NCBI GenBank assembly: GCA_000697055.1
Contig: JNDT01002416.1
Coordinates: 62,001-126,000, forward strand
Reading direction: 5' to 3'
DNA length: 64,000 nucleotides
Source: Saksenaea vasiformis B4078
Taxonomy: Eukaryota; Mucoromycota; Mucoromycetes; Mucorales; Saksenaeaceae
Both the position numbers and the translations under genes were made by a program. Below are positions 28,336 through 64,000 of the stretch, in pieces (position 1 is the first letter of the stretch; every line of letters starts with the position of its first letter). Below the pieces are notes generated by a model, which did not search any database, was not told the origin of the DNA, and was given only the letters and a program-made list of their open reading frames with translations.

Positions 28336-30880
28336 ATGTCAGACTCAAAATATTATGGCGGTGCTTCATCAGTAAGAAACTACAGACGCTCATTGAGGCG
28401 CAATTCGGAGCCGAGTATCGAGACGTTGGATAGAGATTATTTCACTTTAGCTGCAAAATCCACTGAATCTACAACACAAATTCTCAATCCCCACTACTCA
28501 ACCTTGACCTCATCAGAATCAGCTCTCAATCTCTCCGACATATCTTCATCATCCTCTTCAACAGCGTCAATGAGAGCAGCTAGAACACATCAGCATAGAC
28601 TCAACGATGCTCAAGAACAAAGAACATACAGAGATAGTTGCCAGCGTCTGTTAACATGCATCAGTTCGATGAAGGGTATCTGCGAAGATCTCCGACGGGC
28701 AAATAAAGGCCAGATCCCAGTTTACTATCCGTTCCTGCGACGTTCGACCGACTTCCGCTTGCCGATGCTGTCTTCTGTCGAGAATTCGTCTCAAATAAAC
28801 ATGGGATCATCCGCTCTATATACCAAAAACCGTTTTTCACGCCACCAAAATGCGGAGCGTCGCCTACTTAATAGCGATTATGCAAAAGAATTTAATATCC
28901 TTCGTCTGGATGTGAAAGTCGGACATTCGAGTGCGAACCTTGACGCCTTGGAAGCGCAGTCAATCGCTACACTTTTGGATGAGCGACTGCTACAATGCTC
29001 ACATCACCTTGATAATCTCCATACAAGGGTTGCTGACACATCATCCAAGGTGCTTGTTACAGGTGATCTAAATTCAGGCAAGTCGACGTTTGTAAACGCC
29101 CTCCTGAAACGAGATCTTCTTCCCACCGATCAGCAACCTTGTACATCGATGTTTTGCGAAATCGTTGATGCAATGCAAAACGATGGCGTCGAGCAGGTGC
29201 ACGCCATATTTGATGTCGAAAAATACAATCGTCTGAATCCTGAAACATACCATGTTATTGAGATGCGCCACCTTTACAAAGTGACCACCGAACAATACGA
29301 CCATTATAGGATGCTGAAAATTTACACAAATGACGCACGCTCTGCGGAAGAAAGCTTACTGCACAACGGGATAGTTGATATTTCTCTGATCGATTCGCCC
29401 GGGTTAAATACCGACTCGATCAAAACAACAGCTGTTTTCGCACGTCAGGAGGAAATCGATGTAGTTGTATTTGTAGTGAGCGCAGAGAACCATTTCACAT
29501 TATCAGTGGGTTGAAATGTCGCTACGTATTTGTTGTTACTTATATTTCGCATAGGGAAAAGAGTTCTTACTCAATGCCGCCAACGAAAAGGCGCACATGT
29601 TTATTGTTGTTAACCGCTTTGACTCGATCAGTGACAAGGATCGATGTAAACGTCTAATCCTGGAACAAATCCGACAGCTTTCCCCTACCACCTACGCAGA
29701 TGCAGAAGATCTCGTGCATTTTGTTAGCGCTGGTGATGTCGATCTAGAGCCAGCTTCCCGCAAAATCGATGCTCCCGATTTTGCCAGACTGGAACAGAGA
29801 TTACGAGCATTTGTTCTCGGAAACCGTACCAAGTCAAAGTTGCTACCGGCCAAGAACTACCTCGCGAACCTGCTTTTGGATATCCTTGCGCTCTCAGAAA
29901 CAAACAAAGAGAAGTCAGCGCAGGAGTTTGAAGAAGCTTCGCTACATCTACGAGATGACTTGCCCGCGTATGAGCACCTCCTGCGCATGAGAGACCGTTT
30001 ACTGAATCAGGTGGAAAAGAGTGCGGAAAAGACCGTGTCCAATGTTCAGAAATACTCATACAAAAGGTTGAATGCAACTGTTGAAGATATTGGAACGGCG
30101 ATGAAAAGTATCGAATACTCTGGTATTCTGTTGATCTGGCAATATGCTCAAGACTGCATCGATTCGATGTCACGTAAACTATTTCAAGAAATTCGCCTTA
30201 TCGAGGACCATGCTCGTCAGCAAACGGCTCGAAGCGTTGAGCGCATTCACGACATGGGCCAGGAGCATCTGGGCGCTTATCAAATGGCAGTTAATGTAGA
30301 AAACATGTACCAGAAATCGCGCGATCGTCGTATTGTGATCAACGTGGAAGCATCCGACTTTTTCGATCTTGTTATCGATGATAAGCTTTCAGGGTGTGCG
30401 CTATCCTTCGGAACTGTTGCTATGGTTGGTGGACGCGTGCTGGGATTCAAGAATGCGATGTCCAGCATTTGGAGCGTGTCGAACGTGACTAGCGCGCAGA
30501 ACTTGCGACGATGGTTTATTCCTGTCGTCGGTATCATCAGTGCCAGCTTCTTGATGTATGTCGTCTCCGATATGCGCCGTGCTGTAGAGAGAAACGTTGA
30601 GCGAAAGTTCAAGGCAGCTGTGCATGAACTCGAATACGTAGAAAGGCAAAGTGCTCGCATTGCTAAAGGCTCGCGAAGGGCTCTAAAGGTGGAAGGCTGG
30701 GAAATTCAAAACCGATTACAAAAAGCCATCGAAACCAAGGAGAAAGAACGTAGCGAGACAGAGGCCAAGGCGCATATGTCTCAGGAAGCCTTTGATTATT
30801 TCACCTGCCTTCAAAAGATAGCGACGAGTCTTCTTGACAAGGTCCAAGCTGTACCGATAGAAGGTCGTACCAGCTTTTGA
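28336..30880 (+). CDS. FZO1: Mitofusin, mitochondrial outer-membrane fusion GTPase
   Basis: Model: join(28336..29505,29555..30880), 2496 nt, 831 aa; yeast Fzo1 is 855. The start MSDSKYYGGASS follows in-frame upstream codons without an ATG. A Ser-rich N terminus leads to heptad regions, then the GTPase: P-loop TGDLNSGKSTFVNALL, switch TSMFCE, G3 DSPGLNTD and G4 VNRFDSI. The single intron of 49 nt lies between HFTLS and GKEFLL. Two hydrophobic segments, GCALSFGTVAMVGGRVLGF and WFIPVVGIISASFLMYVV, form the membrane anchor. Heptad repeats follow to the C terminus. Fzo1 tethers and fuses outer mitochondrial membranes by GTP hydrolysis. It is convergent with the PIG-U gene, 154 bp away. Confidence 0.95.
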
Positions 30881-58458: not shown

Positions 58459-59582
58459 GATTAGGAAACAGAACTTCCTCTTCCCTGAAACACTGGAGAA
58501 TAGCTGAACTGAACAAAACCGACAAGCGGGGTTTCGCTACACGCACCAGGCGGTGAGGACCAGAATGACGTCACTAAACATTTGGACAACTTGGATTTCC
58601 TACCTGCAAATGCCCAGAAACGTTCGCCCACTGTACTACCGGAGGCGAAACCCGCACCTAACAAAGAGGCAGGTTAGAAGCTCCTTAGCTCCCATCCCCA
58701 GTAGGGAAGATGTGTGCCACGTAGAGGTGGTGAGATCCCAACTCCGGAACTATAACGAATATTGAGCCAATGATAATAGTGTGTGATAGGGAGGTCTAGC
58801 AGCACGGTCAAACTTGACGATATCGCTTGCTAACGGGATCTCTGTGGCGGGAAATTCATGACCACCTCAAGCTGACCCAAACTAATCATACAGGAATATT
58901 CTAGTAGAATCAGCGCCGCTAAGTTGTCAAGTCCTACAGTCTGCTTGTGAAAGTTTTCCGCACTTCAGTGACTTCGCCGTTGAAGATCCATTCCCTGCCT
59001 ATTCCTCTATCTCGCTATAGTGAACCTTCATTTCTCATTTAACGGATGCTATTTTGGATAGATAATATACATCCGATGAGAAGATTTTTCTTTTTCCATA
59101 CGTCAAATATCCTCCCCAAGTAAAATGTTCATAATTCGTTAGTCCCATATATCCTTTCGAGGATAATTATGCATGAATTGCAAATTATTAAATTTCTGCA
59201 ATATCACACTGGTGGACTATGTAGTTGTCTTGAAATGTAGGCCCAGAAGTTTGACGAAAGTATCGAAAGGATTGTTGCAACACCCTGGGTATCTAAAGAT
59301 CAGGGGAATGATGTATCTTTGTAACATCAACATGCCCATAAGCGCCTTCATCTTCTTTGGTTTCCTCGCAGTACATGTATGTATGTACGACGGCGATGTA
59401 TCGCATGCCTAAGCGTTCCTTCACCCATTGTCAATTCATCCCGCTGCTCTTTGTTGATCAGAGCAAACACGGCAGTGTCACGGCTTTGGATTGATCAGAG
59501 CAAAAATTGATTCCCAGCTAAGGCAACGCTTTCCGGCTCGCCTGCGGTGTCTGTGGTATTCTGCGCCAATAAAAATGACGAG
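58459..59582. other. Intergenic with decayed transposon-like text
   Basis: At 58550-58675 a plus-strand frame reads KHLDNLDFLPANAQKRSPT and PEAKPAPNKEAG, possibly a retroelement polyprotein fragment. TTGATCAGAGCAAA occurs twice 37 bp apart (59454 and 59491). No gene supported. Confidence 0.35.
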
Positions 59583-59676
59583 TTAATCTTCGGAATCAAA
59601 AATCAGCGAATGAATATCTCAAATTAATCTTCGGATGTTAAAGACAGCAAATAAAATCGCTCAGTTAATCTTCGGA
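59583..59676 (+). repeat. Three 41-bp-spaced TTAATCTTCGGA motifs
   Basis: Exact 12-mers at 59583, 59624 and 59665, spaced 41 bp each time. The units between share CAGC and TGAATA/TAAAAT parts, so these are imperfect tandem repeats. The array ends 5 bp before an ATG at 59682. Confidence 0.7.
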
Positions 59677-59681
59677 CTTCT

Positions 59682-59918
59682 ATGGCGACGGAGTTCCAAA
59701 AGGAAGCTTGCTTCTTGCTGTCAGCTATGAACACTCCGCAACAGCAACACAACGACCACATGCATCATGAAGAAGTATTCGCTTCCGTTGATGCCAACGT
59801 TTCAGAGGAGGTTTTCGAAGAAGACGAGGTAGTAGCAAATCTTTTTGAGGCCAATTTTCAGCAATTGCAGCAAAAAATGGGTGGCGAAATGAGGAAATCT
59901 ACCACACCAGTGGCGTAA
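59682..59918 (+). CDS. Possible small acidic protein
   Basis: A 78-codon frame starting MATEFQKEACFLLSAM, with a His/Gln patch (QQQHNDHMHHEEVF), an acidic stretch (EEVFEEDEVVANLFEANF) and a C terminus QKMGGEMRKSTTPVA. No family recognised. It follows the 41-bp repeats directly. It might be a first exon of a transposon-borne gene or a chance frame. Confidence 0.3.
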   Translation: MATEFQKEACFLLSAMNTPQQQHNDHMHHEEVFASVDANVSEEVFEEDEVVANLFEANFQQLQQKMGGEMRKSTTPVA

Positions 59919-60424
59919 CGACAACCGTTAATGGTATACAAGAATCTAACAGGCATAGAGGTTCCTAATCTTTGTTTCTTTACTGTTAAATATTTTTAGA
60001 GACAGTAAAATGGATGGTAGGCTGACATATGAGTTGCACAAGCCAATTGCGTTTTTTAAAAACGCATAATCAGTATTCTCTTGATCTAACGTTGTTGTAT
60101 TGCCCATGCCTAATCTGCCTTCTGGATCCTGAGCCTATCTATTCGAAATATTCAAAACGAAAAAAGGCCTTATGACCTGGATGACGGGTCCCTGGCCAGA
60201 GGGCCCAATGACAGAGTGAATGACACTTCTTATCATTTTCCATTGATACCAATATGAAAGTTGTAGAAAAATATTTCTCGGTCACCATCGCAGAATTCTG
60301 TACAGATTGCCCTTGTGCTTATCATAATAGTTACTTGTATGTATATTTGAATGTAGCTGTCTGTCAGTACGTCATCATTTACAAAGTTAACTGCCTGTTT
60401 GCACTGGCCATACCTTGCTGAAGG
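59919..60424. other. Intergenic, no supported gene
   Basis: AT-rich. Nothing recognised. Confidence 0.35.
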
Positions 60425-60817
60425 GAATTGCTACGGACACTCAGGATCTACCTCTTAGGGGCACTCATGTAATGTGTTTTCGCCGGCGGCTGGACAAACA
60501 CCTTACCGAATTTTAATGCACGTATGACCATCCTCAAATAAAAACCAAATCGTAGGTATTTGTGCAGCTAGCGTCCACAAGATGAGCGCCCATGAGCTGA
60601 ATGCCCGTAAATTAAACCCTCACCGAGCGCCTACAAATAGATATCATCACTTCATCTATCAAAGCCTAAGCAGTCGATCCACGGAGGCTTGACAACTCGT
60701 TGATATTTGCGTACGATCAGATTTCATAGAGAATTCGAAGCTACCTATTTAACAGTTCTCTAAATTATGTTACATGAGTGTCACTAAGAGGCAGAATCTG
60801 AGTGTTCGTAGCAATTC
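60425..60817. repeat. Long inverted repeat upstream of the Fanzor gene
   Basis: Arm 60425-60472 and arm 60770-60817 are reverse complements at 42 of 48 positions, sharing TTACATGAGTG, CTAAGAGG, TGAGTGT and CGTAGCAATTC. The 297-bp spacer has no frame. The right arm ends 156 bp before the Fanzor ATG. Confidence 0.7.
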
Positions 60818-60973
60818 TCCTTGCTGAAAGGCTCAGCAGACACCAAGGTGCAAAAACTGTTAGCCTATTAGCAGCGTCCCATCATGGATAGCGAAACAAC
60901 AGTCCTACGAGTTCACATATATTCCATATAACTATTTGACAACAAATCTCCCTTCCTTTTTATCCGCAAAGCC

Positions 60974-63968
60974 ATGGACAGACAGCAAAACGAAGTTGGA
61001 GAGCCCCCGCCCCGCAGGAGACGGTATGGGTATCAGGAAACCCCACTCTCGCAGTTGCCTGGTCGCGACTACTCATTTGTGCAAAAACTGAAGCTTTGCA
61101 ATTTTCTGCAGGAGGACCACAAGCAACTCAGGGTATTGTATTATGGAATTCTCATGTAAACTCTTTCAAATATATTAAGCACAGGATGATATAGGGCGTT
61201 CTTCGTTCAGTGGCAGAAGAATATGCAACCGCCTGTGAGTGTGCGATGCTTTTGGTGAATTTACATGTCCATCGTTGGATTGATGGCTACTTCGAAACTT
61301 TTCCTCCTGTCCATGAAGAAGTGTTCTTTATTGCAGCGTTTAAAATGATCCTTACTCGAGATACTGGCACAAATATTCGGGTAGCGTTTGTATGTAGTGA
61401 TGTTAGGAAGTTATCAGAATGAACTAAATCTGCTCCCCTGATAAATAGTCAAACTACCGCTGGTGTGTCGATCTACGGCAGACTTTCGAAAACTTTTTTG
61501 ATACTTGCAGAATGAACCCAGCGAGGGGAGAAGGTACACATGTAAATTTAAATTTGTAAGGCTAAATAAACTTATAACTTCTGCAGAAAACTACCGGTTT
61601 CCCACGTTGACATACATGATGAGAGAGCTGGCCCCGTCATTTGCGGGGAAAATAGTCAGCAGTGAGTGAGACCTTCTGAAAGAAAAACGGACACAAACTT
61701 TTGCATATTTCTAGACACTTACCTGCATATTACGTCTAATCTGGAAACATACATGAAGAGAACCTTTATTGCTTTTTTTGATGACCTGTTCGAAAATCAC
61801 CGGCAAGATCAGCGGCAGAATGGAAGAAGTTTAGGTATCACTCCACAGTTTAACGCGTTTACCCTATAATGCTTACGGTATATCGCCTTGCTTCCAATTT
61901 GTAGCATCCAGATGTGTCCAGGGAATAACAGCACAAGAACTTTTTGATCGTAGTGCATGGGCAACTTTAGATGATGATTCACTCACCGAACTTGAAGTTT
62001 TTTATGGATATGATAAGACAAGATACGAAGTTATTTTCTTCCTCACGATTGCTTACCGTTGGGTGCTTGCTAGAGAGTTTCAGAATGTTTACCAGGAAAA
62101 CCTTGGTAATGTAGATATAACCGCAGACCTCAGTGATGATGAAAACCAGCGGTTGCTTCCGTGTATGCTTCGTCTCTCAGCATTGATGCTTAAGCAAACA
62201 AATGAACTCAATGGAAAAGGCTGGACTCTCGTTCCAATGGCTAAAAACCAGATAGGTAAGCTGGAACCAGGTGACCTTCTTTGAACCATAGTATGGGCTA
62301 AGCAATAATACTACGCTAGGCTACTTCCCCGTAACCGGTAAAATACTTTACTGGGCGCTTAAAGACATTACCATCAACCTCCCGGAAAATCTAGCAGTAG
62401 GTGTCTCGTAAAAAAGAAAACATAAGTTGACCGAAGAAAAATTGACACTCTTACGTTAGGGTCCTTTGCAAGGCTTTCATACCTTCAATAATGCGCTCAA
62501 AGACATGATATACCGCGAACAACTTTGGGAAGCAATTTTTTGTCTTGATAGAGTCATGCCTCGCCGCCGCCGGGCACAAGATTTGGTCATATTCAACTGC
62601 ATGGAAGTAATGTCCTTACACTTGTCATATAAGGGATAAACAACGATGAGTTACCAGAAGTAGAGTTTGATTATGGCTTTGAAACGGATGGTGTTATGGT
62701 GGCAGTCAGATTTAAATCTCGCAAACCAAACCAAGGTCAGTCCAGTTTTTGTTATACCGTGGAGCACGCTAACAGAAAGGTTGCATTTCAGCATCTTATC
62801 CGTCCTCCCAGAGAGACTTTCAGTTCCTTCCTCGTAACAGGGATTTCTCTGATTTGCAGTGTGGCATCTATCATTTGAAGAAGGAGCCCACGGGCTTAAC
62901 GGTCGCACGCCATTTAGACCCTGAAAGAACTCGCATTGTGGGAATCGATCCTGGTATGCTCCTTGCTATGAAGAATCTAACAAAGGCTATATACGTATTT
63001 CGTAGGTATTCGTTCCCTTGTGACCGCCGTAGACACAGCGGAGGATCTTCATGATGAAGAAGCAAGAAATAGCCATACATTTTCTGTCACGAACGGTTAT
63101 TATCAGTAAGAACAAGATCCTGTATGTAGTCAGTGCAATAACTGCATGCTTTTTTAGAGCCAGCTCCAAATTTAACTGGAGTCTTCAGATAGAAAGGAAA
63201 AATCGTGAAATTGCCAACATGCAGGAAGTCTACGATCGTCTTTCGGAACATCCTAAGACGGCCTCATCTGTTCCGGAATTCCAGCGCTTTCTCACGGCAC
63301 AATTTAGCGAAAAACAGAGGTAGCTACAGAATGTTCTTGTCAATATGTGGTCATATTGAACGGACTTTTTCCAGGACGGATGAGTTCAACCGTCATTACA
63401 GACACAGGGAAAGGCGTGCCTTGCAGGACTCTTCCAGAAGTATGACCATGGACGTTATCGCAGACCAGGTCGGGGGATTTTATCCCAATTCAACTCTGGT
63501 GAGCATTTGACTGCTTACTTTTCATTCATTAATTATCTCTCTGCGTCAGCCTCCAGTTGCAAATGTGCAAAAACAGAACAAAAAAGCGCGGTATCGCCAA
63601 CGTCGTCAGCATCGTGAGGCACAAAACAGTAGACGTGACCAGCGGCGGGCATTTGTGGCATACGGAGATGCCGACCTGCATAGTGGAGGCTATAAGACAT
63701 ATGCACCGTTACCGGTGAAGGTGAGAGTGTTGAAGTTCTCTTGGTAGTGAGAATCTTATTAATATTTACTATCCATGTGTAGACCTTTCGCAAGGTGCTA
63801 GCACAGCGATGTCCAGTCATATGCATAGACGAGTACAAAACCAGCAAAGTATGCAGCATATGTCATCACGACACAGTCGATTTCCGTGACTATAACATGC
63901 AACTGTGTAATCATCGGTATGTTTGGGAAACAAATGGACACAGTGGAAACCTGACTCATATGAATTGA
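60974..63968 (+). CDS. Fanzor (eukaryotic TnpB-like, OrfB/RuvC nuclease homologue)
   Basis: Model: join(60974..61132,61195..61389,61449..61533,61587..61661,61715..61834,61905..62255,62320..62396,62460..62606,62651..62735,62780..62953,63006..63105,63158..63319,63375..63498,63550..63720,63783..63968), 15 exons, 2211 nt, 736 aa; introns 44-70 nt, all GT-AG. The N-terminal 480 residues are helical with FETDGVMVAVRF before the nuclease core. RuvC-I is RIVGIDPGIRSLVTAV (Asp488). A helical insert with many Arg/Lys follows, then VAYGDADLH (GDA 657-659), and CIDEYKTSKVCSICHH with Glu692 and Cys699/Cys702, ending CNHRYVWETNGHS. Fanzors are RNA-guided DNA endonucleases related to TnpB and often carried by transposons. 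The VW-x-x-D position of RuvC-III is Asn726 here. A GTATGT donor at 63917 could instead splice to an exon past the window. Activity is therefore uncertain. Confidence 0.88.
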
Positions 63969-64000
63969 TCTCTAGTAAGAGGTATATCAGACGCCGGCAT

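Follow-up and report, generated by a model that had tools for sequence, protein, structure and literature searches.

A Fanzor1-type gene with 18 exons in an apparently non-autonomous transposon family that tends to insert downstream of a one-sided motif in Saksenaea vasiformis

Results

The Fanzor gene and its exons

The window, a stretch of 64,000 nt from Saksenaea vasiformis B4078 (C665:62001-126000), carries close to its right edge a gene for a Fanzor, a protein related to RNA-guided DNA-cutting enzymes. Its protein content is Mucorales-like: the mitofusin frame at 29597-30880 is 62% identical to that of Rhizopus azygosporus and 58% to that of Absidia cylindrospora, with metagenome proteins reaching 66%. 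We searched 38.7 Mb of genome in 666 contigs, and sequence beyond the window was taken from its own contig, C665. Segment L009 is C665:120001-130000, and a window coordinate equals the L009 coordinate plus 58000; positions past base 64000 are given as virtual window coordinates. We built the gene model by joining exons across GT-AG introns, starting from the ATG at 60974. The gene overruns the window: most of it lies inside, and exon 16 is cut at base 64000. The spliced model places the exons as follows, the last two being read from contig C665.

60974..61132, plus strand: exon 1
61195..61389, plus strand: exon 2
61449..61533, plus strand: exon 3
61587..61661, plus strand: exon 4
61715..61834, plus strand: exon 5
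61905..62255, plus strand: exon 6
62320..62396, plus strand: exon 7
62460..62606, plus strand: exon 8
62651..62735, plus strand: exon 9, carries TDG (residues 415-417)
62792..62953, plus strand: exon 10, carries the RuvC-I aspartate D484 (codon 62947-62949)
63006..63105, plus strand: exon 11
63158..63319, plus strand: exon 12
63375..63498, plus strand: exon 13
63550..63720, plus strand: exon 14, carries GDA (from residue 653)
63783..63916, plus strand: exon 15, carries E688 (codon 63831-63833) and CSIC
63976..64000, on to virtual 64085, plus strand: exon 16, 25 bases in the window
virtual 64126-64217, plus strand: exon 17, outside the window
virtual 64268-64387, plus strand: exon 18, outside the window

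The original prediction opened the gene at 60974 and joined its exons in a single phase, and the spliced model bears out both points with a frame of 822 aa. All 17 introns of the window copy are GT-AG and 40-70 nt long. The RuvC-I sequence GIDPGIRSLVTAV, the GDA block and DEYKTSKVCSIC, which had been read from the earlier exons, are all present in the predicted protein. The predicted gene end at 63968 was wrong: a GTATGT donor at 63917, across which the exon then taken as the last had been read, opens intron 15, and exon 16 runs from 63976. We rejected this end because splicing out intron 15 carries the frame onward into exons with aligned counterparts in the homologues. The earlier count of 15 exons, 14 introns and 736 aa is thus corrected to 18 exons, 17 introns and 822 aa. 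Exons 16-18, nearly all past 64000, give the second zinc-finger half and RuvC-III, with CPQC (residue 769) and WNRDVNAGRNI both encoded beyond the window edge.

The protein is of the Fanzor1 type

The identification as a Fanzor held up, and Mucorales homologues, a profile match to SpuFz1 and published hallmarks support assignment of the predicted protein to type 1. Eight Mucorales proteins matched residues 400-822 (E 4e-63 to 4e-16), the best at 4.2e-63 with 34% identity. The aligned homologues, seven of the eight with P0008 left out, extend to the C-terminus and cover the exons outside the window. Pfam Cas12f1-like_TNB (PF07282) matched the window protein at E 1.5e-4 with 22.3 bits, below the curated cut-off of 26.3, and was found at E 0.01 or better in 5 of 8 aligned proteins. 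Searches of solved structures with single sequences gave no match. A profile of the window protein and seven homologues found the structure of SpuFz1 from Spizellomyces punctatus (8gkh; E 8.9e-4), over the TDG to RuvC-I region and weakly at DEYKTS. PpFz1 was not returned by either the sequence or the profile search of solved structures.

Published Fanzor marks are a DPG after the RuvC-I aspartate and a RuvC-II glutamate moved to a position some six residues ahead of the zinc finger, and a TDG motif in the WED domain marks Fanzor1 (PMC10711439). The window protein has GIDPGIRS from residue 482, E688 followed by YKTSKV and C695, and TDG at residues 415-417; E688 and C695 are invariant across the 8 aligned sequences. 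The Fanzor/TnpB pattern D-X(125,275)-[TS]-[TS]-X-X-[C4 zinc finger]-X(5,50)-RD (PMC3627910) is matched by D484, T691-S692 (206 residues between), CSIC at 695, CPQC at 769 and R787-D788. The zinc-finger cysteine pairs lie 70 residues apart, as they do in the aligned Mucorales proteins. Residues 695-772, encoded by exons 15-17, also hold a conserved C and H and a K/R-rich stretch, common to these proteins, and by this alignment they contain a Mucorales-type insertion.

The gene is carried by a DNA transposon

The gene lies within a repeated element, whose limits we drew from the extent of similarity between copies and from the patterns of its ends.

59527..59534, no strand: left copy of the 8-bp target duplication CGCTTTCC, with the right copy at virtual 64491-64498
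59535..64000, on to virtual 64490 (C665:126490), plus strand: Fanzor-carrying transposon, from its left end to the window edge
59535..59556, plus strand: left end GGCTCGCCTGCGGTGTCTGTGG, an imperfect inverted repeat of the right end
60423..60820, no strand: MITE-like insert of 398 bp with GG ends and its own 8-bp duplication TTGCTGAA, from copy comparison

The whole element is 4956 bp, and similarity between copies spans 59535 to virtual 64490. Its right end, inverted, reads GGCTCCGTGACCATGTCTGTAG. Allowing at most two mismatches, we found 28 left ends (control 0) and 38 right ends (control 1) in the genome, and 30 of the 38 right-end loci were read. All 28 left ends run on into element sequence, and only 2 of the 30 right-end loci (L032 and L043) lack other similarity to the element. 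The 8-bp duplications are identical in 4 of 7 two-ended copies, present with one extra base in another and missing in two. Such inverted ends and 8-bp duplications belong to a eukaryotic transposon other than IS607, the setting expected of Fanzor1. The longest stop-to-stop frame between the left end and the gene is 87 codons, and therefore no transposase gene is visible there. From these features the element appears to represent a non-autonomous DNA transposon family.

The MITE-like insert is nested in the Fanzor element, and since some copies have it and others do not, it is usable as a marker of copy descent. At three left ends, L050 (C154:30644), L056 (C383:18184) and L057 (C396:1135), about 120 bp of element-like sequence gives way to unrelated sequence; these may be hybrids or other elements having the same left end. 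In L017 (C632:101000-108023), part of the Fanzor element is tandemly duplicated at the contig end. The right end of the window copy lies, by eye, about 115 bp upstream of an ATG (L009 6605 onward), whose frame resembles a small, perhaps mitochondrial, protein. To look for an empty site we searched for the 20 bases that adjoin the right end of the window copy; there was one exact occurrence, and three more places with 3 mismatches were near the two given by the control.

Searches for a transposase partner

With a loosely defined inverted-repeat pattern we retrieved 45 places; apart from one on C217, each belonged to or came close to the two known end types, and none was accepted as an autonomous partner with the same ends. 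On C596, a DDE-like transposase frame adjoins a right-end-like 19-mer. Neither a left end nor a duplication was found there, and this frame was not accepted as a partner either. The frame itself (C596:129001-129837, in L032) carries HDESTFYANDGKQMLW and has no Pfam match. A genome search with its protein gave 49 matches, of which the one at C665:59335-60114 lies just outside the window. Domain searches gave 50 hAT and 48 MULE matches, the nearest of which, on contigs having a listed element end, is 19 kb away. A KDZ transposase search found nothing, and neither did its control. None of these searches (loose pattern, C596, KDZ, hAT, MULE) tied a transposase to the element ends. The usual target duplication is 8 bp for hAT and 9 bp for MuDR.

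Left ends lie at a fixed distance from a motif that recurs in the element

The 28 left flanks have TTnAAACTCCG(C/A) in common at about -28 to -17, and the left ends sit at a fixed distance downstream of this one-sided motif. Its CCG begins between -22 and -19 in 21 of the 28 flanks (background 3.3%, P 7e-26) and exactly at -20 in 16. It is followed by 9 nt and then by the 8-bp duplication, a distance of 17 nt in 15 of 18 spaced-pattern matches. The first duplication base is C in 23 of 28 left flanks. On the right, C is the first flank base in 24 of 25 ends, or in 26 of 30 with the five rows that the right-flank profile leaves out as diverged or having an unrelated interior (L019, L032, L039, L042, L043). 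We observed no mirrored motif on that side (2 of 30 right flanks have CGG at the corresponding position).

We built a motif matrix from the 22 sites having CCG at -24 to -18. The six sites outside it, including that of the window copy, all scored best at -27 to -29 when 26 places were tried. Scanning the window with this flank-derived matrix gave the following.

59507..59519, plus strand: target-motif place (TTnAAACTCCGnn), degenerate here (TTGATTCCCAGCT, no CCG), score 4.8, best of 26 places
59589..59601, minus strand: left-end motif box 1, score 8.8
59630..59642, minus strand: left-end motif box 2, score 10.1
59687..59699, minus strand: left-end motif box 3, score 11.8
59728..59740, plus strand: left-end motif box 4, score 11.2

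The first 210 bp of the window element thus hold four boxes against 0.16 expected (P 2.4e-5, with borders drawn post hoc). Of the two remaining boxes, one falls within the 103 bp at the right end (P 0.07) and the other is in the gene, where 2.75 are expected. Because the total of six is not far above the roughly four expected from background, only the crowding at the left end counts. At least one box scoring 7 or more was present in the first 230 bp of 27 of 28 left ends, which are related and not independent; L072 had none. These data make a spaced, one-sided insertion preference of the carrier well supported. In the openly readable papers that we searched, none described a target motif at a fixed spacing for an element carrying a Fanzor.

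A tRNA B-box was rejected as the target motif: a search of the 28 left-end loci found no tRNA, and the C that a B-box carries at the position compared is present in only 8 of 22 anchored sites. A crude scan of the flanks gave no consistent reading frame beside the insertions and no gene-start pattern.

A transposase is the favoured reader of the motif

The recurrence of the motif in the left 210 bp points to a transposase, rather than to Fanzor, as its reader. The simplest reading is that one DNA-binding protein, the transposase, would serve both the left-end boxes and the target box. We favour a model in which the transposase reads target boxes like those that it would bind in the left end, and in which this gives spaced insertion in one orientation. 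Overall, we put a probability of about 0.85 on a Fanzor1 gene carried by an apparently non-autonomous DNA transposon family, with the motif read by a transposase acting in trans and Fanzor as a passenger or helper. A transposase supplied in trans would bind the motif boxes near the left end, would read the same TTnAAACTCCG in target DNA, and would place the element some 17 bp past CCG, in a single orientation. By analogy with studied Fanzors, the protein would bind a guide RNA transcribed from the right end together with some flanking sequence, and its RuvC domain would cut DNA matching the guide. Such a cut may help the element to persist by provoking repair from an element-carrying copy, and Fanzor would then not be the chooser of the site. 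Against this model stand the window copy's own target site, which has no CCG, the two of seven two-ended copies with no duplication, the sub-threshold Pfam score, the weak guide-RNA signal, the box total close to background and the negative outcome of the searches for a transposase tied to the ends.

Alternatively, the element could be a plain MuDR- or hAT-type passenger, and the motif a host feature such as a promoter element or a chromatin factor's site. The hAT and MULE domain matches in the genome fit this, and published Mucorales Fanzor1 elements look MuDR-like (PMC3627910). Against it, the motif recurs within the left end of the element itself, and the flanks gave neither a consistent frame nor, in the 28 left-end loci, a tRNA. 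We regard this alternative as unlikely, while allowing it an appreciable chance.

The coding sequence is under purifying selection

We compared the window copy with 19 rows, which represent 18 distinct copies as L015 and L045 are the same place. dN/dS in the phase of the model was 0.08-0.26, and in the other two phases 1.24-1.69 (three pairs tested). Exon divergence was lower than intron divergence in 10 of 10 tabulated copies. L011, L016 and L018 had 0 indels across 2469 exon bases, and their introns had indels of 1, 2, 3 or 6 bases. The substitution pattern between copies shows purifying selection on the coding sequence of this intron-rich Fanzor1.

Among the seven copies read over the whole gene, the window copy alone is without stops or frame changes. 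L011, L013, L016 and L018 have a stop at codon 253 in common, and frame-changing exon indels were found in L014, L015 and the diverged C666 copy. Splice sites were lost in L018 (one acceptor), L015 (three sites) and the C666 copy (several). These six broken copies, together with a dN/dS of 0.98 for L011 against L018, which indicates that selection there is relaxed, would suit a dead relic, a nonfunctional gene that is merely carried along. The window copy is unbroken and has kept D484, E688, D788, CSIC and CPQC, and its dN/dS is low against all 19 rows, which makes a relic improbable.

Guide RNA signals and flank comparison

The distance from the stop codon to the right end is 103 nt; known Fanzor1 guide RNAs are 75-150 nt (PMC11423790). 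A 241-nt stretch at the right end folded with a z of -1.76, and 13 of 200 shuffles were as good. Across nine right ends, 6 of 24 predicted pairs had changes on both sides, and two diverged sequences weigh most in this count. Silent change showed no steady drop near the end of the coding sequence, and Rfam gave one sub-threshold match (E 0.82). We read these data as a weak guide-RNA structure signal at the right end.

We compared the 17 bases behind the motif in 28 left flanks with 30 right flanks. The best match was 11 of 17; for random segments the median was 10 and the 95th percentile 12. Within this set of donors we rejected guidance by another copy's right flank, there being no excess match over random segments. 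The flanks have no shared sequence after the motif, and positions -13 to -9 are unconserved, contrary to a homing model with a TAM touching the duplication.

These comparisons bear on whether Fanzor itself selects the site, reading (A)CTCCG as a TAM, with the element entering a staggered Fanzor cut 9 to 17 nt downstream. In favour of this, studied Fanzors cleave at a distance of 9-21 nt from their TAM and CCG is used by NlovFz2 (PMC10432273); here CCG and 9 nt precede the duplication. Against it, the recurrence of the motif in the left end is what a transposase site would show, and together with the flank data it makes selection by Fanzor very improbable. It is just as much a long shot that the element is a eukaryotic RNA-guided or TAM-led transposon, which site selection by Fanzor would make it. 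The site preference can be examined independently of Fanzor, since the element has the motif in its own end as well and there is no TAM-like conservation at the insertion point.

Discussion

Fanzor1 was described in 2013 in Rhizopus, Phycomyces and Mucor, and the Mucorales elements that carry it are reported to have inverted ends and 9-bp duplications and to lack a transposase (PMC3627910). The window element is like them in its Mucorales host, its Fanzor1, its inverted ends and its want of a transposase of its own. It differs in its 8-bp duplications from their 9-bp duplications and MuDR-like ends, the two being compared by description (PMC3627910). The original prediction also held that a fungal, intron-rich copy was important. 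The intron-rich Fanzor1 is real, and the claim to importance is weaker than stated, as Mucorales Fanzor1 has been known since 2013 (PMC3627910).

DNA cleavage has been shown for SpuFz1 and three further Fanzors (PMC10432273). Like the window gene, SpuFz1 belongs to a multi-copy element with inverted ends; its locus of 2.1 kb holds a single open frame, whereas the window gene has 18 exons (PMC10432273). The CA of its CATA TAM touches the left end (PMC10432273). In the window element, unlike that of SpuFz1, neither the left end nor the duplication is bordered by a conserved motif. PpFz1 of Parasitella parasitica is likewise a Mucorales Fanzor1; it has a solved structure and DNA cleavage, and a TAM of ATN and a cyclophilin-binding insertion in RuvC are reported for it (PMC11423790).

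The target motif is relevant to the question of what role Fanzors have for their transposons. The locus also contributes an intact, intron-rich Fanzor1 of a kind that annotation based on open frames would overlook, together with many diverged copies for comparison.
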